Positions 1,152 through 47,584 of a DNA stretch of 49,806 nucleotides are shown one piece after another; within the stretch, counting starts at the first letter, position 1, and each line of letters begins with the position of its first letter. Source of the DNA: a virus; the IMG/VR virus record IMGVR_UViG_3300044644_000552, positions 1 through 49,806 of that record. The stretch is one strand, 5' to 3'. Below the pieces are notes generated by a model that was not told the origin of the DNA, did no database searches, and saw only the letters and a list, made by a program, of their open reading frames with translations. The position numbers and the translations under genes were made by a program.

Positions 1152-1169
1152 ACCCCGTTAAATTAACCC
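1152..1169 (+). promoter_or_regulatory. Class A promoter-like motif, copy 1
   Basis: Exact copy of the 18-mer ACCCCGTTAAATTAACCC. The motif recurs seven times, always between genes at the head of a transcription unit. Here it precedes the early region, followed by a C-rich then AT-rich stretch and a class B repeat. It is probably a phage RNA polymerase promoter. The strand given assumes it drives the downstream genes. Confidence 0.7.
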
Positions 1170-1216
1170 TTGCGGCCTCCCCCTGTATTATCTCTCTTAG
1201 TAATACGGAAATAATA

Positions 1217-1238
1217 GTATCTTATATGAAGTACAATA
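1217..1238 (+). promoter_or_regulatory. Class B promoter-like repeat, copy 1
   Basis: A 22-bp sequence beginning GTATCTTATATGAAG and ending TACAATA, identical at three sites, all 24-45 bases upstream of an early gene start. No TTGACA-like box is found at the expected distance from TACAAT, so host sigma-70 recognition is possible but not obvious. The length of identity suits a single-subunit phage RNA polymerase promoter. Confidence 0.6.
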
Positions 1239-2092: not shown

Positions 2093-2127
2093 CGCGGGAA
2101 ATACGGTATCTTATATGAAGTACAATA
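2091..2127 (+). promoter_or_regulatory. Class B promoter-like repeat, copy 2 (extended)
   Basis: The exact 22-bp class B core is at 2106-2127, preceded by AACGCGGGAAA and a 4-base spacer. The same AACGCGGGAAA block precedes copy 3 at the same distance. The block begins within the stop codon of the AcrVA2-like gene. It leads into the next early gene at 2146. Confidence 0.6.
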
Positions 2128-3264: not shown

Positions 3265-3300
3265 ACGCGGGAAACGGGGTATCTTATATGAAGTACAATA
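3264..3300 (+). promoter_or_regulatory. Class B promoter-like repeat, copy 3 (extended)
   Basis: The 22-bp class B core is at 3279-3300, preceded by the same AACGCGGGAAA block as copy 2. The block starts in the stop codon of the upstream gene. The next gene starts at 3334 with its own AAGGAG site. Confidence 0.6.
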
Positions 3301-4801: not shown

Positions 4802-4870
4802 CCCCTTTCAGATTCGATTCCTTAACAGGTTTCGGGTTTGAGAGGGGTTCCTCCTTTATTTTTTCCTTTT
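4802..4870 (+). terminator. Large early terminator hairpin running into the RNA polymerase gene
   Basis: A long hairpin: CCCCTTTCAGATTCGA on the left arm pairs with TTCGGGTTTGAGAGGGG on the right with several G-T pairs. An inner CCT/AGG closes a TAAC loop, giving about 19 pairs over 4802-4847. A pyrimidine-rich tract (TTCCTCCTTTATTTTTTCC...) follows and ends 8 bases before the polymerase ATG. The terminator therefore lies between the early genes and RNA polymerase. A similar hairpin stands before the AP2 gene at 27066. Confidence 0.75.
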
Positions 4871-4877
4871 GGTATTT

Positions 4878-7097
4878 ATGCGAAATAAATTATTACGTTC
4901 TTTAAAGTCTAGAATTGTGTCTGAGATCGCTCCTCAATCTCCATTACGATTCTTAAAGAAGTTGAATATCGAAGATCATCTTGATGAGATAATTGCCAAC
5001 GCTTATTTGTATACCAGGCCCAAGAAAGGTTCTGATAAGCAGATTATAATGTCAGAAGTAATTAGTATTCTTGGCCATAATATGCGCAAGGGTGAAAAGA
5101 AAGACTCTGCTACTGCAGCAAGATGTGGAGCATTCATTCTGTATTCTTTTGACATCTTAGGTCTAACAGAAATTGTAATGACTAATGCAGCCAATGGGCA
5201 CGGTACATATATTGTTAATGTAATTGATGAAAAGAGTATGCAAGAATTGTGGGAAACTGTTGGCAGGCAAGGAGGTAAAGGAAAACTGCCCTCACTAGTA
5301 CCATATGAAGATTGGAAAGGATTTAAACATTCTACAGGATTGTCTTTAGTTAAGACACAGTCTAGGGATGTTGCAGCTACACTAACACCAGCTACTCACC
5401 CTATTGTATTTGAAGCAGTAAATAAGAGTCAGAGAGTTGGCTGGATTATAAACCAAGAAGTATACGCAGTTGCTAAGTGGGCATTAAGCAATAAAACAGA
5501 AGCATTCTCAGATATTTGGGAACAAAACAATCCACAGGCAAGAACAACAAAGCTGCGAGAAACCAAAGCAATCTTAAGTATTGCAGATAAGTTTGCTGAT
5601 ACAACTTTCTATCATTTGTACTATCTTGACTTTAGAGGCCGTAAGTACCCTACAACAGCATATCTGCATGAACAATCTTCAGATATAGCTAAAGGTTTGT
5701 TGCTTAGAAAAGACAAAAAAGTTATTGGACAAGAAGGTTTCTTTTGGTTATGTGTATCCATTGCATCCAATTGGGCAGGCAGTTCAGGTAGAGAAGATGG
5801 GGCAAAAACTGACAAAATACCGCTCAAAGATAGATACCACTGGGTGCTAGATAATGAAGAGATATTAACAGCTTATGCATTGTCACCTAAATTACATCAA
5901 GGTTGGATGGATGCTGATAAGCCTTGGCAATTCCTTGCAGCTTGTGTAGAACTTAAAAATGCATTAAGTATGGGCTCAATGTACTTACAATATGAATCAC
6001 ATATAGAATGCTTTATTGATGGCTCTACTAATGGTTCTCAACACTTAAGTGCTTTGACTAGAGATGAAGTTACTGCTCCTTATGTTAATTTAGTACCACT
6101 AGACATGCCTGGTGATCTATATGCATACGTAGCGGCTCACGTGTGGATGAAGATTGATGCAGTTCTTAGCAGAATGCCACCTGCATTAATACTAGAGTGC
6201 GAAGAATTCATTGATGGGTTAATATCTCTGAAAAAGAAAATTGTAGCTGCAGAGCCTAAGTCTGATTTGCGAGCAGAGTTAGTAATGCAAATTAGGCAGT
6301 ATAAGAAAGATTGGGAATCTGTTGGTAATAAAGCTGCACCTGTATTCTGGGGTAGAATTAAAGACTCTAAACAAAGACGTAAAATTGTAAAGAGAAACGT
6401 AATGACATTACCTTATGGCGGCTCTAGCTATGGTCTATCTGAACAACAAATAGATGATTCAAAGAAACATGGCATAGAGTTGTTAATGAATATGGAACAT
6501 AAATGGGCAGCTTGGATGGGTAGATTAGTATATGAAGATGCTAAAGACTCTTTAGAAAGACCTATGATGTTGTTGTCTGTATTTGAAAAAGCTGGCGCAG
6601 CTGCAGAGAAAAGAAGTCAATTCTTAGAGTGGGTTGTGCCTGTAACAAACTTTCCTGTAGTGCAAAATTATACGGAAGGAAAGACTAAAAAGATACATAT
6701 TCAGTGGGGGCCTAGAATAGGTGTTAGGAGTGATACCACAGGCTACTTTGGTAATGATATGCAATTGCATGTATGTTTTGTTGAGGATCAAGTTCCCTCA
6801 AAAGGAAAGCAGTCTCAAGGAGCAGCACCTAATGTAATCCATTCTTTGGATGCAGCACATCTAGCTATGACAACAGTTAGATGTGACTTTCCTATCACTA
6901 CAATCCATGATTCATATGGATGTTTGCTAGCAGACATGCCTAAGCTTTATCGTATTGTGCGTGAGACATTTGTTGAGTTGTACCAAGATAATCCTTTGTA
7001 CCCTATCATAGATAAGATTGATGGCGATCTTACTTATGTAGATATGGGTGATTTGGATGTTAATTTAATTCTAGAAAGTGAATACGCTTTCGCATAG
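4878..7097 (+). CDS. T7-like single-subunit DNA-directed RNA polymerase
   Basis: 739 residues, about 140 shorter than T7 RNA polymerase, with the loss in the N-terminal region. Catalytic motifs: DFRGRKYP (D251, R255, matching T7 D421/R425), DGSTNGSQHLSAL (D381, matching D537), KRNVMTLPYGG (K505 and Y513, matching K631/Y639), HDSYG (H677-D678, matching H811-D812), and the aromatic end SEYAFA like T7 FAFA. It should transcribe phage genes from phage-specific promoters, most likely the class A motifs. The ATG at 4878 has no Shine-Dalgarno sequence; it follows a terminator tract directly. A TTG at 4869 is a weaker alternative start. It is one of two RNA polymerases in the window. Confidence 0.95.
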   Translation: MRNKLLRSLKSRIVSEIAPQSPLRFLKKLNIEDHLDEIIANAYLYTRPKKGSDKQIIMSEVISILGHNMRKGEKKDSATAARCGAFILYSFDILGLTEIVMTNAANGHGTYIVNVIDEKSMQELWETVGRQGGKGKLPSLVPYEDWKGFKHSTGLSLVKTQSRDVAATLTPATHPIVFEAVNKSQRVGWIINQEVYAVAKWALSNKTEAFSDIWEQNNPQARTTKLRETKAILSIADKFADTTFYHLYYLDFRGRKYPTTAYLHEQSSDIAKGLLLRKDKKVIGQEGFFWLCVSIASNWAGSSGREDGAKTDKIPLKDRYHWVLDNEEILTAYALSPKLHQGWMDADKPWQFLAACVELKNALSMGSMYLQYESHIECFIDGSTNGSQHLSALTRDEVTAPYVNLVPLDMPGDLYAYVAAHVWMKIDAVLSRMPPALILECEEFIDGLISLKKKIVAAEPKSDLRAELVMQIRQYKKDWESVGNKAAPVFWGRIKDSKQRRKIVKRNVMTLPYGGSSYGLSEQQIDDSKKHGIELLMNMEHKWAAWMGRLVYEDAKDSLERPMMLLSVFEKAGAAAEKRSQFLEWVVPVTNFPVVQNYTEGKTKKIHIQWGPRIGVRSDTTGYFGNDMQLHVCFVEDQVPSKGKQSQGAAPNVIHSLDAAHLAMTTVRCDFPITTIHDSYGCLLADMPKLYRIVRETFVELYQDNPLYPIIDKIDGDLTYVDMGDLDVNLILESEYAFA

Positions 7098-9324: not shown

Positions 9325-9342
9325 ACCCCGTTAAATTAACCC
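9325..9342 (+). promoter_or_regulatory. Class A promoter-like motif, copy 2
   Basis: Exact ACCCCGTTAAATTAACCC directly after the TAG of the preceding gene and 30 bases before the SSB gene, so it probably starts the DNA-replication unit. Confidence 0.7.
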
Positions 9343-9372
9343 CTATATCAACCTACTATATGAGATTTAAAA

Positions 9373-21987: not shown

Positions 21988-22610
21988 ACTTTAATAAATT
22001 TACAGACAGAATGTTCAAAAAAGTTGACAATACAGTATGGGACTTAATGTCTGGTACAGTTGGCTTTAAAACACAAGAAGGCATCTTATCTCTTGATTTA
22101 GGTGAGAAAGACGCTGAAGGCAACCATAATGATCCACAAATTGTAATTAATCTTATGGATGAATTTGGCATGGCAATTCCTGCGTTTGCACAAAATACAC
22201 CTGTGTCTATGATTGAGATGGGTGATTTAGTTTATAGTGCAACAACAGGTAATGCATTAGGCTGGATTGTTAAGAAGAATTCTAAATCATTTGATTTGTT
22301 AAAACCAGATGGCACTAGAAGTAACTGGACACCACCTAAGGTACAAATGTTAGGCATGGAGTCCGGTGTTATGATTCTTAAATCATTTATGGCGATGTTG
22401 CCTACTGAGGGTGCTAACAGCTTTCAGAACTCTTTAATGCCTATGATGATGATGGGCATGATGGATGGTGACGACAAGATGGACAGGTTAATTCCAATGA
22501 TGTTAATGTCTAGTACAATGAGTAATGGTAACAATCAAATGATGTCAATGTTACCTATAATGATGATGATGAAAGGGGAGGGTGGGAGCATGTTCGGAGG
22601 AAAAAAGTAG
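21984..22610 (+). CDS. Methionine-rich protein, 208 aa
   Basis: A globular N-terminal half (MNFNKFTDRMFKKVDNTVWD...) is followed from about residue 135 by a low-complexity region dense in Met, with runs such as MPMMMMGMM and MLPIMMMM, and a Gly/Lys end. The ATGA overlap chooses this start; an ATG 12 bases upstream is an alternative. Similar proteins with Met-rich tails occur in other large phages without known function. Confidence 0.65.
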   Translation: MNFNKFTDRMFKKVDNTVWDLMSGTVGFKTQEGILSLDLGEKDAEGNHNDPQIVINLMDEFGMAIPAFAQNTPVSMIEMGDLVYSATTGNALGWIVKKNSKSFDLLKPDGTRSNWTPPKVQMLGMESGVMILKSFMAMLPTEGANSFQNSLMPMMMMGMMDGDDKMDRLIPMMLMSSTMSNGNNQMMSMLPIMMMMKGEGGSMFGGKK

Positions 22611-23775: not shown

Positions 23776-23793
23776 ACCCCGTTAAATTAACCC
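23776..23793 (+). promoter_or_regulatory. Class A promoter-like motif, copy 3
   Basis: Exact 18-mer ACCCCGTTAAATTAACCC, 64 bases before the gene at 23858. Together with the terminator at 24493 it defines a one-gene transcription unit. Confidence 0.7.
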
Positions 23794-23857
23794 TATTTTC
23801 AAAAACGAAGATAGAAAACATTCGCAACTTAATTTATTTATTATACTGGAGCATATC

Positions 23858-27293: not shown

Positions 27294-27311
27294 ACCCCGT
27301 TAAATTAACCC
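27294..27311 (+). promoter_or_regulatory. Class A promoter-like motif, copy 4
   Basis: Exact 18-mer beginning right after the AP2 stop codon. It forms a pair with copy 5, 132 bases downstream, upstream of the terminase operon. Confidence 0.7.
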
Positions 27312-27425
27312 TTTAGCTGCCCCCTTAATTATCCCTCATTTATAGTTATTCTCTTAATTAATACTTATTAAGTAATACTATTAATAGAATACAATATATT
27401 GAGAGATGGATAGTAACATTGCTTA
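27312..27425. other. AT-rich segment between paired class A motifs (origin-like)
   Basis: A C-rich start (GCCCCCTTAATTATCCC) then about 90 bases nearly all A and T with short dyads such as TTAATTAA and ACTATTAATAG. There is no coding potential. The same layout occurs at 45481-45572. Tandem promoters with an AT-rich stretch resemble the T7 primary replication origin. Confidence 0.45.
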
Positions 27426-27443
27426 ACCCCGTTAAATTAACCC
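27426..27443 (+). promoter_or_regulatory. Class A promoter-like motif, copy 5
   Basis: Exact 18-mer, 64 bases upstream of the terminase small subunit start. The sequence after it is A-rich (TAAAAATTAAATAAATAAG), as after copy 7. Confidence 0.7.
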
Positions 27444-27507
27444 TAAAAATTAAATAAATAAGAATAGTACGTAAAATTGCTATTCGATTGAAAACCTAGA
27501 GGTTTGT

Positions 27508-28051: not shown

Positions 28052-28164
28052 TGATAATGTTTGTTGGCACGTTTGTAGAGCTTAATACATGGATAGCTAT
28101 GGTATATGCAATAACGATGTTTAGACTGTTTGCAGATGCTTTGGAGATTATCCGTGGCCATTAA
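28051..28164 (+). CDS. Small membrane peptide, 37 aa
   Basis: MIMFVGTFVELNTWIAMVYA, hydrophobic, ending RLFADALEIIRGH. TAATG overlap with the preceding gene and overlap with the terminase GTG start. Coding support is packing only. Confidence 0.4.
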   Translation: MIMFVGTFVELNTWIAMVYAITMFRLFADALEIIRGH

Positions 28165-29482
28165 TCTACATCCAGCGCAATCCGAAATATATCGCGCCTT
28201 ATTTATTGATCGTAGTGTAAGATATGCAACCGTTTGTTGTGCTCGGGGCTGGGGTAAATCCTATAAAGCTGCCGTAGCTGCTATTTCAGCAATATTTGAA
28301 CTATTAGAATTACCTCATAATGTACCTAATAAAAAAGTGTACATTATTGCTCCTACCTTTGATCAGGTGAAGGATATTTACTATCCTCTTATAAACTATG
28401 ACCTTGGGATGGAGCATTATGCAATTAAAGCATCTAGAGACACAGGACGTTTTCTATTTCCAGGTAATGTAGAATTAATACTATTATCCTTTGAATCGGT
28501 AGAACGTATGCGTGGTAAGGGTGCTTATTTTGTAGTATGGGACGAAGTCTCTTCTTGTACTAAAGGTATTACTGCCGAAGAAGCTTGGCAATCTGTTATA
28601 CAGCCTACTATTGCTACTAGATGGAGTAATAGAAGAGCAAAAGCAGTTGGTGCTAAATCTCCTGGGCGTGCATTAGCTATTAGTACTCCAAAAGGGTATA
28701 ATTTCTTTCATGAAATGTGTATGTACCACGAAACAGATCCTGATTGGGGTTTCTGGCAATATGATTATTTACAATCACCATTCCTTGATCCTGTTGAGAT
28801 TGAAAAGTTAAAAGATAAGCTAGACCCTGTAACATGGGCCTCAGAATATATGGCTTCATTTGCAGAGTCTGGTAATAGCGTATTCTATTGTTTTGATAGA
28901 AAGAAACATGTAGATGCTCATTTACAATACTTTGAACCAGGAGAAGATGTACATGTCTGTATCGACTTTAACGTCATGCGACAATGTTCTAGCATCTTTG
29001 CACTCAGAGGTCATCAGATGCAGTTTATCGATGAGATGCAAGGACACCCAGACACTGAAGCCCTCGCTATCGCTCTTAAAACTAAATTCCAAGGGCATAA
29101 GATCTACGCCTATCCTGATCCATCAGGAAGAGCTAGAAAGACTTCTGCGCCAGTGGGACGAACGGATTTTAGCATATTAGAATCTAATGGTATTATTTGT
29201 ATAGCACATAGAGCAGCGCCACCCATTGTGGATAGTGTAGCGGCTGTTAATCGTAAGTTACATACAGCATCTGGTAAAATAGATATGTATGTACATCCCA
29301 GATGTAGTGGTACCATTTTATCATTAGAGAGAACAAAGTGGACTGACCGCAACTTAGATATAGCGACTATCGATAAGTCGGAAGGTATAGAACATTTCTC
29401 TGATGGTGTACGCTACGCAGTAGAATATCTGTATCCAATTCAAACAGGTGGGAAAAGAACTTCCCGAGGTTTCAACTTTTAA
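28154..29482 (+). CDS. terL: Terminase large subunit
   Basis: 443 residues from a GTG start with GGAG upstream. Walker A ARGWGKS (residues 30-36), VYIIAPTFDQVKD, Walker B YFVVWDE (D130-E131), ISTPKGYN coupling motif, and nuclease acidic residues in CIDFNV, YPDPSG and HFSDGVRYA. It is the ATP-driven motor and nuclease that packages concatemeric DNA through the portal. Confidence 0.95.
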   Translation: MAINLHPAQSEIYRALFIDRSVRYATVCCARGWGKSYKAAVAAISAIFELLELPHNVPNKKVYIIAPTFDQVKDIYYPLINYDLGMEHYAIKASRDTGRFLFPGNVELILLSFESVERMRGKGAYFVVWDEVSSCTKGITAEEAWQSVIQPTIATRWSNRRAKAVGAKSPGRALAISTPKGYNFFHEMCMYHETDPDWGFWQYDYLQSPFLDPVEIEKLKDKLDPVTWASEYMASFAESGNSVFYCFDRKKHVDAHLQYFEPGEDVHVCIDFNVMRQCSSIFALRGHQMQFIDEMQGHPDTEALAIALKTKFQGHKIYAYPDPSGRARKTSAPVGRTDFSILESNGIICIAHRAAPPIVDSVAAVNRKLHTASGKIDMYVHPRCSGTILSLERTKWTDRNLDIATIDKSEGIEHFSDGVRYAVEYLYPIQTGGKRTSRGFNF

Positions 29483-29492
29483 GGATATTAAG

Positions 29493-29873
29493 ATGGAAAC
29501 ACAAGACTGGGTCAACATCTTTATTGGTGTTGGAGGGACTATTGCAACGACTTTTATAGGGTTGTTAACAACCAAGTTCAAAAGTCTAGAGGACGACCAT
29601 GATGTGGCTATTCAAGCATTAAACGATTTAAGAATTTTAATTGCAACTGATTATGTTAAAAGAACAGATTTAAATGTACATCTTAGTGAGATATCTCGCA
29701 AACTAGATAAGTTAGAAGAGTTAGAGGTACAAATGTCTACTCATTATGCACGTAAAGAAGATTTGAGAGGTCTAGGCGATAGTTTGGGAAAGAAACTAGA
29801 CCTAGTACTCGAAAAGTTAGAGAGAAAAGTAGATAAATACGATTATACCCCGGAACGGAGGAATAATGGCTAG
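29493..29873 (+). CDS. N-terminally anchored coiled-coil protein (spanin- or holin-accessory-like), 126 aa
   Basis: METQDWVNIFIGVGGTIATT forms a single membrane helix to about residue 26, followed by about 95 residues of charged helix with heptad character (SEISRKLDKLEELEVQM). The topology fits an inner-membrane spanin component or XhlA-like protein, but no lipoprotein partner is adjacent. AAGGAT precedes the start. It overlaps the next gene by 8 bases. Confidence 0.55.
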   Translation: METQDWVNIFIGVGGTIATTFIGLLTTKFKSLEDDHDVAIQALNDLRILIATDYVKRTDLNVHLSEISRKLDKLEELEVQMSTHYARKEDLRGLGDSLGKKLDLVLEKLERKVDKYDYTPERRNNG

Positions 29874-30450
29874 GTCTAGAATAAATGTAATAACAACAGA
29901 TTTAATATCCGATGCTGGTAATTCATTATGGTCATTGGTACAAGGTGAACAACTTGAGTACCCAATTACAGTGGGTTTCTTAGGGCGTACTGACTTAGGC
30001 CATACATTTAGTGCTGTTGTTGCTGAAGGTTTAAACACAACAATCGGTAAGGATAAAATACCAACTGCAATAAGACCAAACGGTATTGTTACCACACTCT
30101 CCATTAGAAATCCAGTTAATAGAGATTTATGGAATGCTACCCTTGCCTACAATGCAGAGGAAATTGTTCTCTACAACAATAGCTATTACAGACTAACAAC
30201 TGGTACATCTAGAGTAAACAGTACAACACCTGCTTTAGATAGTGCGTGGGCATTAACATCACCTAATATTATTTACATTAGATTCCCCGAGACACTCGGG
30301 ACAAATTGGCTAGTAGGCCCGTCAGTAAGCAAAGCTGCATATGGATTCTTCGAACTACAAGTTTCGGAGCCACCTGCAGTACTGTTTAAAAGAGTATGGA
30401 AACCTGTACGCGGAACTGTGGAGCTATTATTTAGTCCCACAGAATTATAG
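29866..30450 (+). CDS. Virion/fibre-associated protein with chitin-binding-like segment, 194 aa
   Basis: MARSRINVITTDLISDAGNS... The middle part LWNATLAYNAEEIVLYNNSY...LDSAWAL resembles the W...Y..gd.V.y.g..Y pattern of small carbohydrate-binding domains common in phage tail proteins. It begins the tail-fibre block. GGAGG site. Its exact structural role is unknown. Confidence 0.5.
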   Translation: MARSRINVITTDLISDAGNSLWSLVQGEQLEYPITVGFLGRTDLGHTFSAVVAEGLNTTIGKDKIPTAIRPNGIVTTLSIRNPVNRDLWNATLAYNAEEIVLYNNSYYRLTTGTSRVNSTTPALDSAWALTSPNIIYIRFPETLGTNWLVGPSVSKAAYGFFELQVSEPPAVLFKRVWKPVRGTVELLFSPTEL

Positions 30451-34183: not shown

Positions 34184-36052
34184 ATGTCTAAAAGCTTATC
34201 CTCGATTTTACGGGGAACAAATTATGGTACATTACCAATATCTGCAGGCGGCACAGGCGGTAATACAGCGGCTACAGCATTAACAGCTTTAGGGGCACAA
34301 GCTATATTACCTGCAGCTAATGGTAGCGCAAATGGTTACTTAACATCTACTGACTGGACTACGTTTAATTCTAAACTAAGTTCATATACGTTGCCAACTG
34401 CTGGTGCATCTACATTAGGTGGTATTAAAGTTGGTACAGGATTAACTATTGATGGCAATGGCATACTCACAACAACCAATAGCGGCACAGTAACTTCAGT
34501 AGCAGGCACTGCACCTATAGCTTCAAGTGGCGGTGCAACACCTACTATCAGCATAGCCGCTGCCACTACATCAGTAAGTGGTTATCTGACATCTACCGAT
34601 TGGAATACATTTAACTCTAAGCAAGCTGCTCTAGTATCAGCAACTAATATTAAAACTGTCAATGGCACAACGTTACTAGGTAGTGGTGATTTAGTTATTA
34701 GCGGAGGAGCAAGTGCTACTAAAACAATTGCAAATAAAACAGCTGCATACACAGTAGTAGCAGGTGATTTAGGTAAAATCATCAACTGTACTAGTGGTAC
34801 ATTCACCGTCAGTTTAACGGCAGCAGCTACATTAGGTGCAGGGTTTGTTTGTACGATTTGGAATACGTCTATAGTAAGTAATGATGTTATTACTATAGAC
34901 CCTAATGCAAGTGAATCTCTTGATTACTGCAATACTAAAAAGCTACGCAGTGGTGAAGGTTTTAGTATTATTAGTGATGGTGTAAATTGGCAGACTGATA
35001 ATAAGAAGCCAATGAAAGGTTATGCTGAGAATTTTTCAAATTTAAGTGCTGGAGCTATTGCTTCTGGTTCTTATGGAGTACGTATTGGTTCTGAAGGCTC
35101 TTCAACTGGTGACCAAGCCTATGCGATAGGACATCAAGCTATAGCATCTAGCACCGATTCATATAGTATTGGTCGCAGCTGTACAGCTTCGGGATATGCT
35201 TCTCATAGTATTGGAAATAGCTGTACTGCAGCATCTAACTACTCAACAGCTCTTGGCACAAATTCGGCAGCTTCAGGCTCAGTCACCGCCACAGGCGCAG
35301 GCGCAATGGCACTAGGTGGTTCTTATGCTAGCGGTGTAAATAGCTTTGCTGCCGCTATCGGTAATAATACAAGTACCTATGGGACGGGTGGGTTGGGTAG
35401 TATTGCTATGGGTGTTAACAGTAAGGCAACAACAACTAATGCAGTTGCAATAGGCAGTTCAAGTACGGCATCTGGTGTAATGGCAACTGCATTAGGTAAT
35501 GCAACTGCATCAGGAGAGCGTTCCTTCGCGGTTGGATATGGGTGGCAAGGAAATACTCTGGCAAGTGCAAAAGGTTCTTTTGCGCTTGGAGCAGACTCTG
35601 TTAGTAATATTATTGGTAAATTTACGTATGCTTCTGAGGCATTTGGCGCGGGTGGCGATGCTCAATTCGGTAAACTTGTTCTTCGCGCAGCAACCACAAC
35701 CACAACAGCCGTAGTATTAACTTCCAATGGCGCAGCAGCATCAACAACCAACCAACTTATCGTGGCAACCAACCAAGCTATGACATTCTTTGGCACTCTA
35801 ATTGCCAAACAATCTGCATCAGCTAATATGGCAAGTTATCTAATTAAAGGGGCAATCGTTAATAACGCAGGTACTGTGAGTATCTCTAGTATAGCTATTG
35901 AAACAATAGTTGACACTATAGGGTTAACAACACAACCAACATATACAGCTGACAATACAAACAAGGGGCTTACTGTAACCAGTGGTGCAAAAGCAACAAC
36001 AAATATTAGATGGGTCTGTAATTTAGATTCTGTTGAAGTAACTTACGCATAA
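34184..36052 (+). CDS. Large tail fibre with YadA-like head repeats, 622 aa
   Basis: The N-terminal ISAGGTGGNTAATALTALGA and ATNIKTVNGTTLLGSGD blocks are shared with other fibres. Residues about 290-460 carry repeats of the type A-x-G-x2-A-x-A-S-x2-S-x-S/A-I/L-G (for example YAIGHQAIASSTDSYSIG), the left-handed parallel beta-roll of trimeric autotransporter heads. A beta-rich tip follows. Likely receptor-binding fibre. Confidence 0.8.
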   Translation: MSKSLSSILRGTNYGTLPISAGGTGGNTAATALTALGAQAILPAANGSANGYLTSTDWTTFNSKLSSYTLPTAGASTLGGIKVGTGLTIDGNGILTTTNSGTVTSVAGTAPIASSGGATPTISIAAATTSVSGYLTSTDWNTFNSKQAALVSATNIKTVNGTTLLGSGDLVISGGASATKTIANKTAAYTVVAGDLGKIINCTSGTFTVSLTAAATLGAGFVCTIWNTSIVSNDVITIDPNASESLDYCNTKKLRSGEGFSIISDGVNWQTDNKKPMKGYAENFSNLSAGAIASGSYGVRIGSEGSSTGDQAYAIGHQAIASSTDSYSIGRSCTASGYASHSIGNSCTAASNYSTALGTNSAASGSVTATGAGAMALGGSYASGVNSFAAAIGNNTSTYGTGGLGSIAMGVNSKATTTNAVAIGSSSTASGVMATALGNATASGERSFAVGYGWQGNTLASAKGSFALGADSVSNIIGKFTYASEAFGAGGDAQFGKLVLRAATTTTTAVVLTSNGAAASTTNQLIVATNQAMTFFGTLIAKQSASANMASYLIKGAIVNNAGTVSISSIAIETIVDTIGLTTQPTYTADNTNKGLTVTSGAKATTNIRWVCNLDSVEVTYA

Positions 36053-38486: not shown

Positions 38487-40082
38487 ATGACAGGCACCGT
38501 TAAAACAGTAGCAGATCCTTGTCAGACATACATTCATTTTATATCTTCGTGGGCTAAAAGTCGTGCTGTTTGTAATGGTGAACGCGCAGTCAAAGAATTA
38601 GATGGACATTTAGATTTGATTCGGATGTCTAATCTTTTAATACCCTTTTCTCCTTCAATGAGTAGTGCGCAATACGATTTCTATAAAGCAGAAGCAGAGC
38701 TGCCTGGCATTACTGCACAATTTGCAAAAATGTTAGTAGGCGGTATGTTAAGAAAACCACCTATTGTAGAGTTACCAGAAAATGCTCCAGAAGATGCATT
38801 AGATTGGATAACAAATAACATAGGCAGAGATGACTCTACTTTAGTGGCTTTCTTAGATGATATTTTGTGGGAAGAAGTACAAACGTCACGTGCTTGGGTT
38901 TTCATTGATTATCCCCGTGTTTCTAATTCAGATCTTCTTGATAAAGAAACCAAAGAGCAAATAAAGCCTTACCCTATTTTACAGAAAGCTGAAACAATTA
39001 TAAATTGGTCTACACGTACAAATATGTTTGGCAAAACAGTATTAAACAGGGTTATTGTAAAAGGATATATGGATGACTATACTACAAATGAATTCCATGC
39101 AATTCGGGTACCTGCAGTTTGGGTGCATGAGCTAGATGAGAGTGATGAGTATAGAATTCGTATTTATCAAGGCACAATTGCAGATAATGGTGATCAAACC
39201 TTAAAGCCAGGTGACGCTGCAAACAAGAATGACAGGTTGCTTCCAGCAGGAGGATTTCAGCTTATAGAAGTAATTGATAATATTTTGGCAAATGGCGAAA
39301 AACTAAATCACATACCTGCGTGGCCTTTAAATGGAAACATTACACCAGTTACTCCATTGCTTTCTCCAATCGTTGATAAAGAAATTAGCTTATATAATAA
39401 AATTAGTAGAAGGAATCATCTATTGTATGGTGCTTCTACCTACACTCCTGTTATTGCTTCTGATATGCCTGATGAAGAGTTTGATGATATTGTACAAGCA
39501 GGCTTAGGCTCTTGGATACGGTTAAGACAAGGCGATACTGCAACTGTACTAGAAACACCTACAGCCGCACTATCCGACATGCAAGCTGCAATTTTATCTA
39601 CAATGGATGAAATGGCTAAGCTTGGCATTAGAATGCTAACAACAGAAAATGAACAATCTGGTATTGCATTAGAATTGCGTAATGCATCTCAGACAGCACA
39701 GCTTGCTGTTCTTAGTACCAAAATATCTAATACAATGAAACAAGCAATATGTTTAATGCTAAACTGGCGGTATAATATAGACTGCAAGGCTTGTGATATC
39801 AAGTTTGAACTATCTGCAGACTTTGATCCAGTACCATTAGGTGCTGAGTGGTTAAACTTAATTACACAATGGTATCAATCAGGCTTGTTGCCTAGACCAG
39901 TGTGGTTACAAATGCTTAAAGCAAATGATATACTTAATGCTGAGTATGATGATGAAGAAGCTATGGGACAAATTAATCAAGATGAGCTGATTATCCCAGC
40001 CTCTACAAAATACAATGATCAATATTCAATGCAATTAGAAGCTGCTAAACAGGGGCAGAAAGCTAAACCAATTAAAGAATAG
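38487..40082 (+). CDS. Portal protein (DUF4055-like)
   Basis: 531 residues. The LAGMLRKPP-like segment here reads LVGGMLRKPPIVEL, followed by FLDDILWEEVQTSRAWVFIDYP and a long helical C-terminal part (STMDEMAKLGIRML), typical of the DUF4055 portal family of siphophages. It forms the dodecameric channel for DNA at one capsid vertex. It stands directly before the MuF protein, its usual partner. Confidence 0.8.
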   Translation: MTGTVKTVADPCQTYIHFISSWAKSRAVCNGERAVKELDGHLDLIRMSNLLIPFSPSMSSAQYDFYKAEAELPGITAQFAKMLVGGMLRKPPIVELPENAPEDALDWITNNIGRDDSTLVAFLDDILWEEVQTSRAWVFIDYPRVSNSDLLDKETKEQIKPYPILQKAETIINWSTRTNMFGKTVLNRVIVKGYMDDYTTNEFHAIRVPAVWVHELDESDEYRIRIYQGTIADNGDQTLKPGDAANKNDRLLPAGGFQLIEVIDNILANGEKLNHIPAWPLNGNITPVTPLLSPIVDKEISLYNKISRRNHLLYGASTYTPVIASDMPDEEFDDIVQAGLGSWIRLRQGDTATVLETPTAALSDMQAAILSTMDEMAKLGIRMLTTENEQSGIALELRNASQTAQLAVLSTKISNTMKQAICLMLNWRYNIDCKACDIKFELSADFDPVPLGAEWLNLITQWYQSGLLPRPVWLQMLKANDILNAEYDDEEAMGQINQDELIIPASTKYNDQYSMQLEAAKQGQKAKPIKE

Positions 40083-40093
40083 AGGTATTTACC

Positions 40094-43000
40094 GTGGCCA
40101 TTAATGCTAATACACAAATTTATGATAAAACACTAGATCGCGCAGCAATGCTACGACTACATGAGAGAAGGGTAGTTGGTAAGGTTGATGTAATCATTGA
40201 TGGCCATATCCTTCGTCTGGACAAATTAATAAAAGCTTTTGAAGGTATGAATCCTTTTAAAGCTGCATTAGATAAAGAGTTGCATAGAACGTATTCACAA
40301 ATTAACAACTCAGTAGAGAAGGATTTACTGTCTTTGACTACAGATCAACTCTCTTTTGCTTACCAAAAAGTAGAAGTAGCAATGGGGCATATATGGCGTA
40401 CTGAACGGCCTAAAGTTCGTGTTGCTGAAGAAATTGCGCTTGCTAATCCGCTCTATAAAAATCAAACAATGGAACAAGGGTGGCAAGGTATTTCTAAAAA
40501 TGAGAAGATTAGAATTGAAGCTGTAATTCGAAAAGGAATTGCAGATGGTAATACTATTGATGAAATAGCATTAGCAGTACGTACAGGAAATGTTCACAAT
40601 ATAACTAGAAACCAAGCAAAAGGCTTAGTCATTACTGCAGTTACTTCTGTAACAAATCAGGCTGACCACGCAATATATAAAGCTAATGCAAAAGCACTAT
40701 TAGGTTGGGAATACGTTGCGGTACTTGATGCTCGTACTACACCTTTGTGTGCAGGAAGAGATGGCCATATTTATGAGATAGGAGATGTTGTACACTTGCC
40801 TCCAGCTCATTGGCATTGCCGTTCTACAACAACACCTGTATTTAAATCATGGGATGATATTTCTAAATTAGAAAGTGTTGCTCAAATACGTAAGCGAAAC
40901 TTAGCAGGACTTACGGATAAACAAAAGGCTTTCTATGATGGCAATACTCCACTAAAAGAAAGCTATAACGACTGGCTGCTAAGACAACCACAAGATGTTC
41001 AACTAAGACACTTAGGTGATTATAAGAAAGTAGGTATGTTTAATTCTCAACAACTTACTTTAGACAAATTTACTAATGATGAAGGCAATACAATAGGTAT
41101 CAAAGAGTTACGTAAGATGACAGATTCTACTTATGTACTTCCTAATGATACCCAGAAGTTTGCCAATGCTAAGGCTAAGTTAGATGCAATGCAATTGCCG
41201 ATAATGACACCTGAAGATTTATTTGATAATAAAGAATTAGTAAAAACATTAAGAGATTATTATTTATTACAAGCTGGAGAATTAGATGGTACTCTATCAC
41301 TCACAAACTATCGCGGTGCCCTCATACACACCAAGAAAGCTACCAAATCACGAGTGCTCAACAATCTCCCAACTGAAGACCAAACAGTCTTTAACCCAGT
41401 TACAGGTCGTTACGAAGACACAAGGCTATACCAGCCTAACGTACAAGTACTAAATAATAACCTTAGGCTATTACGCGAAAGTCCAACATTAAAACAGGCA
41501 GATAAAGACTTTATCGAAAATTTTGTTGGTAGCCTTGATGAAAAGATGGGTGCAAATGAGAGAGCTGTAGTGGCAGATAATCTCCGTATTATCTTTACTA
41601 GGTTTAGAAACAATGGTGAGCAATGGAATAACTTTAAAGCTGTTGTTCAAGGCCAAATTAAGTTTGATGTAATGAACGTATCTGATTCGTTAGAAACACA
41701 ACTACGTGCTGATATTGATGTACTTAAAAAGCTTAAGCAAGACAATTACATTGACCCTATCTTAGGCCCTACTCAGTTACAAGACTTGCATGATAACTTT
41801 ATCAGCAATATACGTGCTAAGAATAACTGGGAAGATTCCACTGCACCTAAGATTGCAAGGGAATTACGCAATACATTTGACTACAAAATACCGCTTAAGC
41901 TTAAGTTGTTGCCTAATGGGAAGCCACGTATTAGCGAAGAAGCATTAACACAATTTTATTTGAAATTTGCCCATAGGCTGAGTCTTGCTGATATGCCTGA
42001 CAGAGATCAATTTGCTGTAGCACTTGGTAGAGATTTATACAATCTTGCCAACCTAAACGGTAATAGACGTGAATGGTATAGTACTGGAATGGCTCTATTA
42101 GAAGCAAAGAATGTAAAGAAATTCTTCGAAGTAGAAACCTTTGGTGTACAAAAACGAAGAATGAAAAGTAGATTGAGTAACAGTTTGTTTGGGCCTTATT
42201 ATGACACTCTGTCATATAACATACGTGTGACTGATCCTCGTGTACAAGAATATGCGCAGCTCACAAGGAAAGTGGATGTCGGCCTACGTGTTGGCGTTAC
42301 AACGGATAAGAACAAGTTAATATTCCGCGAGGGTTATAAGACTTATTTTATTGACAGAGGTCTCCTAGGTTTAGAAGACACACGTATACCTATTACATCT
42401 ACAAATAGTTTTGGTGATTTTCCTGAAAAGTTTGTTGATAAGAATTTGGCAGATGCTTTAAATTGGGCATCTAAATCTAAATACAAAATTGACGAAGACT
42501 TCTACGATTTCACTCAGAAATTATTGTACTTCGAAGACGACAGAGGTAACGCCAAAAAGTACAACGAATTGAATGAATACAAACATTACATATCTTCAAG
42601 AGGAGATGCTTATGAAAGATTCAAATCAATGGAGTGGCTACGGACTCGAGGATATTCTTTTAGTAATCATGCTTTTGTTGACCATCGTGCTCGTATATAT
42701 GATCGCGGACTCATTAGTCCTCAGTCAGGAGAATCCTTCAGACCGTTTCTTAACACAGAACAATCAAAAGTGTTGGGTGAGTCGGGTTATAGAAACTTTA
42801 GAGACCAAATAGGTGCATTCATGGGCGGTCTTAACGATACCTTTGAAGGACGATATAATTCATTATCCTTTACTGGTAGACAAAAGATTGCTGATAAGCT
42901 ATGGCCTGATATGGTAGAGATTGGTAATAAGATGTTACGTGCAAAGCCTGCTGACATTCGCGCTATATTAGAATCAGAAATGGTACAATTAGTAGATGGC

Positions 43001-44719
43001 GAAGAGCTAGGTAAGTTCTTTAGGTTTGCTATGGAATCAGCTAAGATAGATAATCATCTTAAAGCTGGTGGTACAATGATTGATTATGAAACAGCCTTAG
43101 CTTTAGAACAAGACGCTTCTTCTTCTGGTGCTCAGATTATTGCATTAACAACAAAGAACAAACAGTTAGCTGAATTATCTAATGTTGTACCTACAAATCA
43201 AAAGCGTAGGCTATATGATGAAATTGCTGCTGCCACTTATAATGATCCTCGTTTTAAAATATTAAACGAGAAGTTAGGGTTAAATGAAAAAGATTTACGA
43301 AAAGCTGCGAAAGCTCAGAACATGGTTACGTTTTATGGTGCTGGTGAACGAACTGGCATCCTTAATGTGGAAGGTAAATTATCGAAAGTCTTGGACAAGC
43401 AGGGTAACACGTTGGTCGTTAAAGCGTCTGATCGTGATAAGGTACTTAATGAGATTTCTGCAAGAGCAGCAAGATACGAACGTTTCGATCCTGAAACAGC
43501 TGAACAGCTCAAACAGCTCAGAGCAAATGTACGCGATGTCTTTAATAAAGGCCAAGATCCTGGGGACGATATTATGGAAGCGCTCTACTTCCTCGATCCA
43601 GAGACTAGGCAATTAGTTGAAAAGATGTCTCATCAGTATGATAGAGTTGTAACACCATCAGACTTTGCTGCTATTGCAAGACTAATGTCTGAACAGTTAA
43701 GTGAACAAGTGCCTATTTTAAAAGACTTTACTAAGTTCTTTGGTAGACTTGCCGAAGATTTCTTAGTTAATTCTAAGCCTTCTGAAGCAGCTCTTGACTG
43801 GAAATCTATTGGCCGTACAGCTGCCCTAAGACCTTATCAGAGAGGTTATGTACTTCCTGATCGTATTAGCGAGATATTAGGTTTAAAGGCAGGAGAAGCA
43901 GTAACTGAAAAGTTCTTAAAAAGGTTTAATGGCTGGAAACCAGACGGCTCTTTAGCTGATATTATCTATGGTGTAAAAGGCCCTGATGATAGACGTACTG
44001 GCTTTAAAGTACTTAAAATTGAACCTGTAGATAAGATTGAAATATCTAAGGGTATAGAAATCTTTTATGCTAACAAGCTTCCTAAGTCTTGGACAAATGT
44101 ACCTTGGGTTAATTTTGATGGTAAAATCATTGAACAGAACTTTACTCAAACATTTGAAGAGAGATTGTCTTATAAAGACAGGGATGGTAATTGGGTAAAC
44201 AATATCTTGCAAATACCTCAAAAGACAGAAGCAACTTGGTGGGAACAGTTTGTAAATGCTGATGGTAAGATTAACGATATAGCTGATGCAGGAAAGGCAC
44301 GTACTGCTTTTGCCGTTAATGGTAACCATTCAAATGACGCTACATTGGTTAAGAACTTTCACCTATGGGGCAAACAAAATGGCATTGCAACTAGTACTAT
44401 TCATGACGCGTTCTTTGCTAATGCTGCAGATATGCTAAATGCTCGTGATGGTATTCGTAAATTATACGCAAAAACATTGGATGCTAATCCAGTGTTAGCT
44501 ACACTAAATGAGATGAAGGCTCGTGGATTGCCTAAAGAGCTTTATGATCAATACCTTCAAGAAGCCATAGACAAAGGACTAATACCTGTAGAAGGTGTTT
44601 CTATTGTTGGTGGTAAACGCTTGAAGAAATCTGATATCCTTACTAAAGAGGATATTTTATCAACAATACCCGATCCTACTAAATTTGAAAATGATTGGGG
44701 TTTTTATGGAATTGGATAA
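40094..44719 (+). CDS. MuF head protein fused to a virion-type single-subunit RNA polymerase
   Basis: 1541 residues, GTG start with AGAGG upstream. Residues about 130-250 form a MuF (phage head morphogenesis) domain: TSVTNQADHAIYKAN, VLDARTTPLCAGRDG and PPAHWHCRS. The C-terminal half has the single-subunit RNA polymerase set in order: DHRARIYDR (D863, R867, as T7 D421/R425), LEQDASSSGAQ (D1007, as D537), RKAAKAQNMVTFYGAG (R1069, K1073, M1077, Y1081, in the same register as T7 R627, K631, M635, Y639), and IHDAFF (H1437-D1438, as H811-D812). The polymerase part is about 1100 residues, close to the N4 mini-virion polymerase. MuF proteins sit near the portal inside capsids, so the polymerase is probably packaged and ejected with DNA. 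Residues 280-800 have no recognised domain. Confidence 0.85.
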   Translation: MAINANTQIYDKTLDRAAMLRLHERRVVGKVDVIIDGHILRLDKLIKAFEGMNPFKAALDKELHRTYSQINNSVEKDLLSLTTDQLSFAYQKVEVAMGHIWRTERPKVRVAEEIALANPLYKNQTMEQGWQGISKNEKIRIEAVIRKGIADGNTIDEIALAVRTGNVHNITRNQAKGLVITAVTSVTNQADHAIYKANAKALLGWEYVAVLDARTTPLCAGRDGHIYEIGDVVHLPPAHWHCRSTTTPVFKSWDDISKLESVAQIRKRNLAGLTDKQKAFYDGNTPLKESYNDWLLRQPQDVQLRHLGDYKKVGMFNSQQLTLDKFTNDEGNTIGIKELRKMTDSTYVLPNDTQKFANAKAKLDAMQLPIMTPEDLFDNKELVKTLRDYYLLQAGELDGTLSLTNYRGALIHTKKATKSRVLNNLPTEDQTVFNPVTGRYEDTRLYQPNVQVLNNNLRLLRESPTLKQADKDFIENFVGSLDEKMGANERAVVADNLRIIFTRFRNNGEQWNNFKAVVQGQIKFDVMNVSDSLETQLRADIDVLKKLKQDNYIDPILGPTQLQDLHDNFISNIRAKNNWEDSTAPKIARELRNTFDYKIPLKLKLLPNGKPRISEEALTQFYLKFAHRLSLADMPDRDQFAVALGRDLYNLANLNGNRREWYSTGMALLEAKNVKKFFEVETFGVQKRRMKSRLSNSLFGPYYDTLSYNIRVTDPRVQEYAQLTRKVDVGLRVGVTTDKNKLIFREGYKTYFIDRGLLGLEDTRIPITSTNSFGDFPEKFVDKNLADALNWASKSKYKIDEDFYDFTQKLLYFEDDRGNAKKYNELNEYKHYISSRGDAYERFKSMEWLRTRGYSFSNHAFVDHRARIYDRGLISPQSGESFRPFLNTEQSKVLGESGYRNFRDQIGAFMGGLNDTFEGRYNSLSFTGRQKIADKLWPDMVEIGNKMLRAKPADIRAILESEMVQLVDGEELGKFFRFAMESAKIDNHLKAGGTMIDYETALALEQDASSSGAQIIALTTKNKQLAELSNVVPTNQKRRLYDEIAAATYNDPRFKILNEKLGLNEKDLRKAAKAQNMVTFYGAGERTGILNVEGKLSKVLDKQGNTLVVKASDRDKVLNEISARAARYERFDPETAEQLKQLRANVRDVFNKGQDPGDDIMEALYFLDPETRQLVEKMSHQYDRVVTPSDFAAIARLMSEQLSEQVPILKDFTKFFGRLAEDFLVNSKPSEAALDWKSIGRTAALRPYQRGYVLPDRISEILGLKAGEAVTEKFLKRFNGWKPDGSLADIIYGVKGPDDRRTGFKVLKIEPVDKIEISKGIEIFYANKLPKSWTNVPWVNFDGKIIEQNFTQTFEERLSYKDRDGNWVNNILQIPQKTEATWWEQFVNADGKINDIADAGKARTAFAVNGNHSNDATLVKNFHLWGKQNGIATSTIHDAFFANAADMLNARDGIRKLYAKTLDANPVLATLNEMKARGLPKELYDQYLQEAIDKGLIPVEGVSIVGGKRLKKSDILTKEDILSTIPDPTKFENDWGFYGIG

Positions 44720-45444: not shown

Positions 45445-45462
45445 GTACACAAAAGGAGGCAG

Positions 45463-45480
45463 ACCCCGTTAAATTAACCC
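45463..45480 (+). promoter_or_regulatory. Class A promoter-like motif, copy 6
   Basis: Exact 18-mer, first of a pair before the capsid operon. It is followed by CCTCCCCCTATATT, matching the C-rich block after copies 1 and 4. Confidence 0.7.
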
Positions 45481-45572
45481 TTCCCTGCCTCCCCCTATAT
45501 TCATTATATATAGTATTATCTCTTATTATAATATCTATTATACTAAGTAATATACTATATAATCATTATAGA
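45481..45572. other. AT-rich segment between paired class A motifs (second origin-like site)
   Basis: A C-rich start then nearly pure A/T with dyads such as ATTATAATAT and TAATATACTATATAAT. Same architecture as 27312-27425. No coding potential. Possible replication origin or simply strong promoter spacer. Confidence 0.45.
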
Positions 45573-45590
45573 ACCCCGTTAAATTAACCC
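45573..45590 (+). promoter_or_regulatory. Class A promoter-like motif, copy 7
   Basis: Exact 18-mer, 80 bases before the scaffold gene, followed by A/T-rich TAAATATAAAATTTAG. Probably drives capsid and tail genes. Confidence 0.7.
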
Positions 45591-45670
45591 TAAATATAAA
45601 ATTTAGTGATTCCAACATTATAGATTGTATCTATAATATATAAAGAGTTGTACTCAAAGGAAATAAACAA

Positions 45671-46318
45671 ATGTCTACCGAAACTGATGAAACACAAACA
45701 CAAGAAACTAATACTCCTGCTCCGGATAATATTACTCCCACTCCTCCTGTGGATGACGTGGACAGCAAGATCCAAGAAGCTCTTAAGCCAATCAAGACAA
45801 AACTTGACAGTGCGTACAAAGAGCGTGACGAGGCTTTAAGAAAAGCTGCAGAGTATGAACAGAAAGAAAAAGAAGCTAATATAGCACGTCTACAAGAAGA
45901 AGGGAAACACAAAGAAGCCTTTGAACTTCAGTTAGCAGAGACCCAAGCTAAATTGGAAGCTGTAACAAAGCGTAACGTAGAGCTTGCTCGTGATGCAGAA
46001 ATCAAAACTGTACTAGCAAACTATGCGCTTAGAAGTGACAAAGCTCGCGATATGGCCTATATGGATATTGCCAGTCAACTTATTCAAAATGAGAATGGTG
46101 TCTGGGTTCACAAGAGTGGTGCCGATCTTAGAACGTTTGTAAAACAATTCTCTGAACATGACGATAATTCTTTCTTGTTTAAAGCCAAACCATCATCAGG
46201 CGGCGGTACTACACCATCTGGAACAAATAATCTTCCTGATAACTCGCCTAAATCAATCTTTGCGATGTCTCAGGAAGAGGTACTCAAACTCGCGGCAGAA
46301 GGAAAGCTTCGCCGTTAA
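45671..46318 (+). CDS. Capsid scaffolding protein
   Basis: 215 residues. The N-terminus is acidic and rich in Thr and Pro; residues 35-115 are a long charged coiled coil (SAYKERDEALRKAAEYEQ); the C-terminal half ends in a basic LKLAAEGKLRR. Composition and position before the major capsid gene fit an internal scaffold of the GP20/P22-gp8 kind. It would direct procapsid assembly and leave before packaging. AAGGA site. Confidence 0.8.
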   Translation: MSTETDETQTQETNTPAPDNITPTPPVDDVDSKIQEALKPIKTKLDSAYKERDEALRKAAEYEQKEKEANIARLQEEGKHKEAFELQLAETQAKLEAVTKRNVELARDAEIKTVLANYALRSDKARDMAYMDIASQLIQNENGVWVHKSGADLRTFVKQFSEHDDNSFLFKAKPSSGGGTTPSGTNNLPDNSPKSIFAMSQEEVLKLAAEGKLRR

Positions 46319-46333
46319 TATTAAGGAAATAAA

Positions 46334-47584
46334 ATGGCAGCAAATAGCGTTACCTATACCAGCGGAACAGCTGGTAATAATAACAACTATGTATTACAAG
46401 AAGCAATCGGCGCATACAGCGATGAAGCTTATACTAATGCTCGTAAGTTATCTGGTACTGGAATTACCTCTAGCAACCCACAAATTGACACTAACACAGA
46501 AACCTTTATTGGTCAAATGCGTTGGTTGAAACCTTTAAACCCTAAAATCAACATTGCATCATTAACAGATGCTGCTGATGGCGAGAAAACTAACTATACA
46601 TCTGACTTCAGTACTTACATTAAAACTGTACGTACACACGGTGCTGAAAAAGTCAATATGACTGAAGTAGTTACTCGTCAAGATGGTTTAGCTAAAATTG
46701 GTCGTGACTTTGGTGAAACTCGTGCTCAAGACGAACATAATGCTATTCTTTCTGTACTTAAAGGCGTAGCTATTTCTGAAGCATTAGTTGGTACAGCAGG
46801 TGCTGGTGGCCAGTCATGGTCAAATGACCCTACTGACGCAGCTTATGGCTTCTATGTAGATATCGGTTCAGCTACTGCTGGTGCAGGCAAAATCGTTTCT
46901 GGAAACGGTAAAGATAGAGACAACGTTCTTAACTATGCGTACCAAGGTGCTTCAAGAGCAGAAGGCTTGTTAGATGCATTTGGCAAAGCTTTCAAAGACT
47001 ATGAACCAGATTGGGCATACTTAGCTGTATCTCCAGAAGTTTTAGCTTCTTTCCGTTCAGCTAACTTTGTTGATGAAACAACTGTAACCGAAGGTAATAT
47101 TAACTTCCAAACAATTTTCAACGGTAAATTCCGCTTGATTGTAACACGGGCTAACCAATCTTTAAGTGCATCTGATCTTGCTGTACTTAATGCAGGTGCT
47201 GGTGTTGATATTGTTGGTACTAAAACTTCATTCATCATTTTACCAGGTGCTATTGCAATGGAAACATTAGCAGTGCCTGATTCAACTGAAGTATACCGTG
47301 ACGCTAACAAATACAAAGGTGGTGGTGTTACTTCTGTCTGGTCACGTTGGGGTTATGTACTAGCTCCTGCTGGTTATGATTGGAATGGTATTTCAACTGC
47401 ATTCCCTTCAGATGCTGATTACGCTTCATACCGCAGTACTTCTGGCGGTAATACAACTTCAGTAGTTGCTGCTGCAGGAACACAAGCTGCTCTTATCTCT
47501 AACCGTGCAAACGTTAAAGGTACTTGGACACGTAAAACAGCTTCTGCACTTTCATTGGGTATTTTACCAGTATTCCATTCTTAA
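46334..47584 (+). CDS. Major capsid protein
   Basis: 416 residues. MAANSVTYTSGTAGNNNNYV, ETFIGQMRWLKPLNP, NMTEVVTRQDGLAKIGRDFG and FVDETTVTEGNINFQTIFNG read like a HK97-fold coat protein of the non-processed type. Codons are biased towards T/A-ending preferred forms, as expected for a very abundant protein. Position after the scaffold and before connectors supports the call. Confidence 0.85.
   Translation: MAANSVTYTSGTAGNNNNYVLQEAIGAYSDEAYTNARKLSGTGITSSNPQIDTNTETFIGQMRWLKPLNPKINIASLTDAADGEKTNYTSDFSTYIKTVRTHGAEKVNMTEVVTRQDGLAKIGRDFGETRAQDEHNAILSVLKGVAISEALVGTAGAGGQSWSNDPTDAAYGFYVDIGSATAGAGKIVSGNGKDRDNVLNYAYQGASRAEGLLDAFGKAFKDYEPDWAYLAVSPEVLASFRSANFVDETTVTEGNINFQTIFNGKFRLIVTRANQSLSASDLAVLNAGAGVDIVGTKTSFIILPGAIAMETLAVPDSTEVYRDANKYKGGGVTSVWSRWGYVLAPAGYDWNGISTAFPSDADYASYRSTSGGNTTSVVAAAGTQAALISNRANVKGTWTRKTASALSLGILPVFHS

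Follow-up and report, generated by a model that had tools for sequence, protein, structure and literature searches.

A MuF head protein joined to a divergent T7-type single-subunit RNA polymerase in a phage lineage with a second, free polymerase

We analysed a stretch of viral DNA of 49,806 bases (38% G+C; IMG/VR virus record IMGVR_UViG_3300044644_000552), hereafter the window, in which all identified genes lie on the + strand. One of these genes encodes a MuF head protein and a single-subunit RNA polymerase (RNAP) within one chain, which we call MuF-RNAP, and another encodes a separate polymerase, RNAP2. The MuF-RNAP gene starts with GTG where its relatives have ATG, and is composed as follows.

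40094..44719, + strand: MuF-RNAP gene, uninterrupted frame of 1541 codons, GTG start
40514..40831, + strand: MuF domain PF04233, residues 141-246
41117..44716, + strand: polymerase-like unit, residues 342-1541, modelled as one piece
42692..42694, + strand: R867 codon, DxRxRxY motif (T7 R425), from profile alignment and homologue conservation
43112..43114, + strand: D1007 codon, motif A catalytic Asp (T7 D537), from profile alignment and conservation
43298..43336, + strand: motif B, R1069-Y1081 (T7 R627-Y639), from profile alignment and conservation
44402..44407, + strand: motif C, H1437-D1438 (T7 H811-D812), from profile alignment and conservation

The original prediction, made from the bare sequence, had described a single 1541-residue frame with a MuF domain at about residues 130-250. 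Pfam places Phage_Mu_F (PF04233) at residues 141-246 with 51.8 bits, against a cut-off of 29.6, and homology to the head morphogenesis family phrog_241 (PHROGs) spans residues 57-368 at an expectation value (E) of 1.8e-56. Towards the C-terminus, the Pfam family RNA_pol (PF00940) scores 42 bits against a cut-off of 22, with its best stretch at residues 1383-1484, and the RNA polymerase family phrog_414 matches at E 1.4e-23, best over residues 860-1089. The T7-type core comprises about residues 780-1541, the N-terminal boundary of the polymerase not being fixed. Low-scoring sequence matches in the PDB (e.g. delta-endotoxin, ribonuclease) were taken as chance, and a PADLOC search gave no match.

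A profile of the C-terminal family aligned with a T7-like RNAP profile over 510 columns (98.5%, E 2.8e-15), and the eight residues that had been assigned to the T7 register can be read off this alignment. Across 56 homologues, the most distant at 26% identity, seven of the eight never vary (R867, D1007, K1073, M1077, Y1081, H1437 and D1438); the eighth, R1069, is Arg in 52 of them and Ala, Gln or Lys in the other four. Motif C could be located in 111 loci, and its Asp is kept in every one. Unsaturated pairs give a ratio of non-synonymous to synonymous substitution rates (dN/dS) of about 0.04-0.06 for the polymerase core and 0.05 for the MuF part, with purifying selection seen on all three parts of the protein. 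Thus, at a dN/dS of about 0.05, the MuF and polymerase parts are both maintained. An assembly chimera or a frameshift is ruled out by this ratio, by hundreds of homologues and by conserved synteny.

An AlphaFold2 model of residues 342-1541, built with 28 homologues, has a predicted local distance difference test score (pLDDT) of 81.6 and a predicted template modelling score (pTM) of 0.77. When this model was searched against the PDB with Foldseek, the best 50 matches were all mitochondrial (POLRMT) or T7 RNAPs, with E of 1.6e-18 for the mitochondrial enzyme and 4.3e-17 for T7 RNAP (probability 1.00). Moderate TM-scores were obtained, 0.33-0.41 when normalised by query length and 0.41-0.55 by target length, and the structure match to T7 RNAP has about 13% identity. 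In BFVD, the best match is a protein of 1463 residues (E 3.2e-67), the same length as the homologue in phage DSS3_VP1, followed by proteins of 762 and 732 residues, lengths equal to those of the RNAP of Pelagibacter phage Kolga and the RNAP2 of DSS3. Virion RNAPs (vRNAPs) of the N4 type reach 3.5e-13 at best in that database, behind the T7-like matches. The model of residues 1-540 is weak (pLDDT 70, pTM 0.39), and no fold search was based on it. Two of the points on which the prediction had been staked in advance thus came out in its favour, since a right-hand polymerase fold is predicted and the catalytic Asp is kept. Pfam, the conserved residues and the predicted fold agree on a complete single-subunit RNAP attached to MuF, and we regard a MuF head protein joined to a complete, conserved and divergent T7-type RNAP as supported by these sequence comparisons.

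The fusion is not confined to this phage, as might have been supposed. A scan of viral contigs yielded 163 relatives with patterns derived from MuF-RNAP and at least 541 with family patterns, so that IMG/VR holds hundreds of relatives, and GenBank has entries under head-protein names. Among 50,697 phage records, the whole fusion occurs only in EBPR siphovirus 1, DSS3_VP1 and DSS3_PM1, where it is annotated as head protein, head morphogenesis or minor head protein-like. We found no description of a MuF-RNAP fusion in the open-access library that was searched; an earlier description in the DSS3_VP1 paper is possible.

The gene neighbourhood is also conserved. The order portal, MuF-RNAP, scaffold and major capsid protein holds in every examined locus longer than 15 kb and is the same in DSS3_VP1. 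The corresponding genes of the window, with the terminase, are given below.

38487..40082, + strand: portal protein, directly upstream of MuF-RNAP (phrog_145 E 2.4e-55, synteny)
45671..46318, + strand: head scaffolding protein (family match, synteny)
46334..47584, + strand: major head protein (family match, synteny)
28130..29482, + strand: terminase large subunit (family match)

The fused protein of DSS3_VP1 and DSS3_PM1 (NCBI family Naomviridae) is 26-31% identical to that of the window and scores 27.1 bits to PF00940 (cut-off 22); the gene order is the same and RNAP2 is present, whereas the promoter motifs differ. Window and DSS3_VP1 have in common, at 27-54% identity, the terminase, portal, MuF-RNAP, scaffold, major capsid protein, RNAP2, DNA polymerase, exonuclease, primase and nrdA genes, which places the window on a branch close to Naomviridae. 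EBPR siphovirus 1 has the same gene order and a fused protein of 57% identity, but its gene is split by an insert that carries an HNH endonuclease gene, and is therefore annotated as three. The near-identical relative G002 has a tape-measure homologue, which suggests a long tail. As to the host, the only match among genome contigs is one metagenome-assembled genome labelled Gammaproteobacteria, too little for an assignment.

The second polymerase lies near the opposite end of the window.

4869..7097, + strand: RNAP2, separate, non-fused T7-like single-subunit RNAP of 742 residues (PF00940 E 6.5e-67)

Its probable start is an ATG at 4878. RNAP2 is 26% identical to T7 RNAP over 796 columns. It was found in the records of 20 of 24 relatives, the other four being contigs of 27-68 kb that are possibly incomplete, and it is carried by DSS3.

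A search for repeats in intergenic DNA returned two promoter-like motifs, M1 and M2. M1, ACCCCGTTAAATTAACCCT, has seven copies in the window.

1217..1229, + strand: M2, GTATCTTATATGA, upstream CGGAAAT, early-promoter-like
2106..2118, + strand: M2, upstream GCGGGAAA, early-promoter-like
3279..3291, + strand: M2, upstream GCGGGAAA, early-promoter-like
1152..1170, + strand: M1, ACCCCGTTAAATTAACCCT, repeat search
9325..9343, + strand: M1 with 1 mismatch, repeat search
23776..23794, + strand: M1, repeat search
27294..27312, + strand: M1, first of a pair upstream of gene 27508 and terminase
27426..27444, + strand: M1, second of the pair upstream of gene 27508 and terminase
45463..45481, + strand: M1, first of a pair upstream of scaffold and capsid genes
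45573..45591, + strand: M1, second of the pair upstream of scaffold and capsid genes

In the window, M2 precedes each of the genes 1262, 2146 and 3334 at a distance of some 20-40 bp, and all three sites are upstream of RNAP2. Alignment of 31 sites from the window and relatives, selected for an exact 13-base core, gave the consensus tGCGgaAAa-N3-GGTATCTTATATGA. In 17 genomes there are 40 exact M2 sites, every one on the gene strand, of which 30 are found in the 5 kb that precede RNAP2, where 2.8 would be expected. M1 has 54 exact sites, again without exception on the gene strand; just 5 of these are in the 5 kb before RNAP2 (3.7 expected), and the motif is spread across the middle and late modules. 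The contrast between the two distributions is clear. M2, a candidate promoter, forms no stable hairpin and folds no better than shuffled sequences (z 0.2-0.8).

M1 holds a short inverted repeat, GTTAAATTAAC. DSS3_VP1 (L084/L088) has 11 copies of the motif AGGKTRCGTTAAA, each of them on the gene strand. Several are followed by GAGGGGG, and the motif has the core CGTTAAA in common with M1. This counterpart keeps only CGTTAAA, so sequence and not a hairpin seems to be conserved. AGGKTRCGTTAAA is likely to be the promoter set for the DSS3 RNAP2; several copies precede the DSS3_VP1 portal gene. The first M1 of the scaffold pair (window 45455-45500; G006 22166-22215) has a C-rich tract behind it and lies between the arms of an inverted repeat, in the window GGAGGCAG...CTGCCTCC, and may thus double as a terminator or processing site.

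We propose that MuF-RNAP is a virion RNA polymerase that starts a relay to RNAP2. SPP1 gp7, the best-studied MuF protein, is bound to the portal, is present in few copies inside the procapsid and supports the start of infection, and for toxins fused C-terminally to such MuF proteins delivery with the DNA has been proposed (PMC6316719). By analogy, the MuF part would dock on the portal during procapsid assembly and bring a few copies of the T7-type RNAP into the head. On infection, MuF-RNAP would leave the head together with the DNA and transcribe the early region, the RNAP2 gene included, from M2 promoters (GCGgaAAa-N3-GGTATCTTATATGA). RNAP2 would in turn use M1-type promoters to transcribe the genes for replication, packaging and structural proteins, and so supply new MuF-RNAP for the next particles. 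A head-borne RNAP would probably spare the early genes a dependence on host polymerase. This relay is the most economical reading because a second polymerase is present and the early motif is concentrated before its gene, and we consider the full mechanism probable.

Packaging and ejection by way of a portal-near MuF protein had already been suggested in the original prediction, and such a delivery is probably the best explanation, with further support from RNAP2, from the early-promoter-like motif and from phage Kolga. Kolga has a MuF protein of 633 residues that aligns with the first 368 residues of MuF-RNAP (E 4e-41) and has no RNAP fusion; its C-terminus is a metallopeptidase-like domain with HEFAHH (PF15890 E 9e-5, below cut-off), and its RNAP, of the RNAP2 type, is free. 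MuF genes of the peptidase type are found in Pelagibacter phages Kolga (L184:20001-21902, in which the domain was checked) and Aegir (L183:11644-13545), and both phages have a free RNAP of the RNAP2 type.

Several points weigh against the relay. Packaging through the portal is inferred from SPP1 gp7, and ejection and activity are likewise proposed. MuF cargo delivery has itself only been proposed in most systems, and a protein of roughly 170 kDa must cross a long tail. The pairing of M2 with MuF-RNAP and of M1 with RNAP2 is read from position. The only isolate lineage that has been sequenced, DSS3_VP1, lacks M2 and yielded no early motif. Furthermore, the nominal P of 6.6e-27 for the M2 distribution is inflated, since the relatives are not independent.

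The fused polymerase might instead act only in the producing cell, near the portal, in late transcription or as an aid to packaging, and never be delivered. Its gene does lie in the late structural module, with M1-type sites just downstream, before the scaffold and capsid genes. However, free RNAP2 is already available for late genes, a head-protein fusion is a poor source of bulk transcription, and the distinct early motif calls for a polymerase that is there before RNAP2 is made, which makes this role improbable. Somewhat less so, but still unlikely, is that host RNAP reads the early region including RNAP2 and that MuF-RNAP is an auxiliary at entry, e.g. pulling DNA in by transcription, much as T7 RNAP helps to internalise T7 DNA. 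Kolga-type phages, with a relative of RNAP2 and without a fused RNAP, must start by way of the host polymerase, and expression of RNAP2 is thus possible in the absence of a virion polymerase. However, the first 10.5 kb show no enrichment of sigma-70-like sites (25 found, 34.7 +/- 7.1 in shuffles), and M2 is long, conserved, unlike a -35/-10 pair and clustered upstream of RNAP2. That the polymerase part has lost catalysis and is a structural or DNA-binding module is very improbable indeed. The strong divergence from T7 RNAP noted in the structure match would fit such a module, and some MuF C-termini of other phages are regarded as inactive (PMC5512222); yet both catalytic Asp residues, the Lys and Tyr of motif B and the Arg of DxRxRxY are invariant in the 56 homologues, and the low dN/dS speaks for maintenance. 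We rule out a dead polymerase by this residue conservation.

As to origin, the likeness to N4 vRNAP drawn in the original prediction holds for size and function, but no sequence match supports kinship. Transfer of a direct N4 vRNAP relative to a MuF protein would account for the similar function and polymerase size, and a tree joining both is not rejected (approximately unbiased test, p-AU 0.449). In a tree of 31 rows, MuF-RNAP forms its own clade (100/100), and at that depth the tree speaks neither for nor against a common root with N4 vRNAP. However, hhalign finds no sequence homology to the N4 gp50 vRNAPs beyond motifs general to single-subunit RNAPs (0.2-0.4%), the profile match being 0.2% there and 98.5% to T7-like RNAPs; the structural matches are weaker to N4-type vRNAPs than to T7-like enzymes, and the candidate promoter M2 has no N4-like hairpin. 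We therefore hold descent from N4 vRNAP to be rather unlikely. A recent duplication from RNAP2 is disfavoured as well, the joint grouping being weakly rejected (p-AU 0.026).

N4 gp50 (Schitoviridae) resembles MuF-RNAP, in the role proposed here, as a single-subunit polymerase with catalytic motifs A, B and C that travels inside the particle and has a second phage RNAP acting after it. It is a protein of 3500 residues with hairpin promoters (PMC4496689), and has other N- and C-terminal domains, short tails and a heterodimeric RNAPII, in contrast to the 1541 residues with an N-terminal MuF domain and the single-chain RNAP2 of the window. In the portions of their article on these enzymes, Iyer et al. 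confine N4-like virion RNAPs to N4-like phages, and the MuF fusions described there are to other enzymes, with no RNAP named among them (PMC5512222). Among published systems, the tape-measure-fused RNAP of the Thermus phage P23-45 comes closest in concept. This phage has a long tail, a structural-protein-fused RNAP (gp96) that reads the pre-early genes, among them that of a free, non-virion RNAP (gp64), and two separate promoter motifs (PMC10770324); its RNAPs are of the two-barrel, cellular type and sit on a tape measure, whereas the window has a T7-type single-subunit enzyme on MuF. The SPP1 gp7/Mu F family has in common with the window the MuF domain, a portal-adjacent gene and, in MuF-effector fusions, a C-terminal cargo. 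The known cargoes are toxins or effectors (e.g. VIP2-like ADP-ribosyltransferase, PBECR, RelA/SpoT) and not a polymerase (PMC5512222, PMC7302621). MuF-RNAP is thus like N4 and P23-45 in function, yet T7-type and on MuF, with membership shown in neither family.

If the relay is real, MuF would be a third carrier of virion RNAPs, beside the giant ejection protein of N4 and the tape measure of P23-45, and hundreds of phage genomes with a plain head-protein annotation would be transcriptionally self-sufficient. MuF-RNAP would, to our knowledge, be the first T7-type virion RNAP in a long-tailed phage. We lean slightly towards a wider reading, in which a widespread long-tailed lineage evolved a MuF-fused single-subunit RNAP independently of N4 and P23-45, with duplex promoters, no use of host RNAP and a handover to a T7-like RNAP, and in which MuF serves as a general carrier for polymerases, peptidases and toxins. 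A real relay would make MuF cargo delivery directly testable, since the arrival of the polymerase could be measured by the rifampicin-resistant early RNA that it makes. The two candidate promoter-polymerase pairs would also be of use in biotechnology.

In some relatives, the MuF-RNAP gene is broken beside or inside the catalytic motifs, near residue 989 (L042-L044), 1078 (L045, L074, L083), 1104 (L035, L055-L057, L060, L061) or 1410 (L011). Rfam identifies group I introns in two of these genes (L045:11224-11459, L011:12219-12425). RNAP2 is also interrupted in two relatives (G005, G020; L162, L160), just before the motif B tyrosine (MTLP/Y), at nearly the same homologous site as the break near residue 1078 of MuF-RNAP, and the insert at L162:3053-3249 is a group I intron (Rfam).

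In the window, no match was found to the dCMP deaminase of DSS3, a phage with a link to uracil-DNA. A GIY-YIG (SegE-like) endonuclease, likely a homing endonuclease, is encoded at 13769-14269, between the exonuclease and primase genes. In the structural region, the genes at 29866-30450 and 34184-36052 show a possible carbohydrate-binding module of type CBM 5/12 (below cut-off) and YadA-like head repeats, and their products are candidate host-recognition parts.

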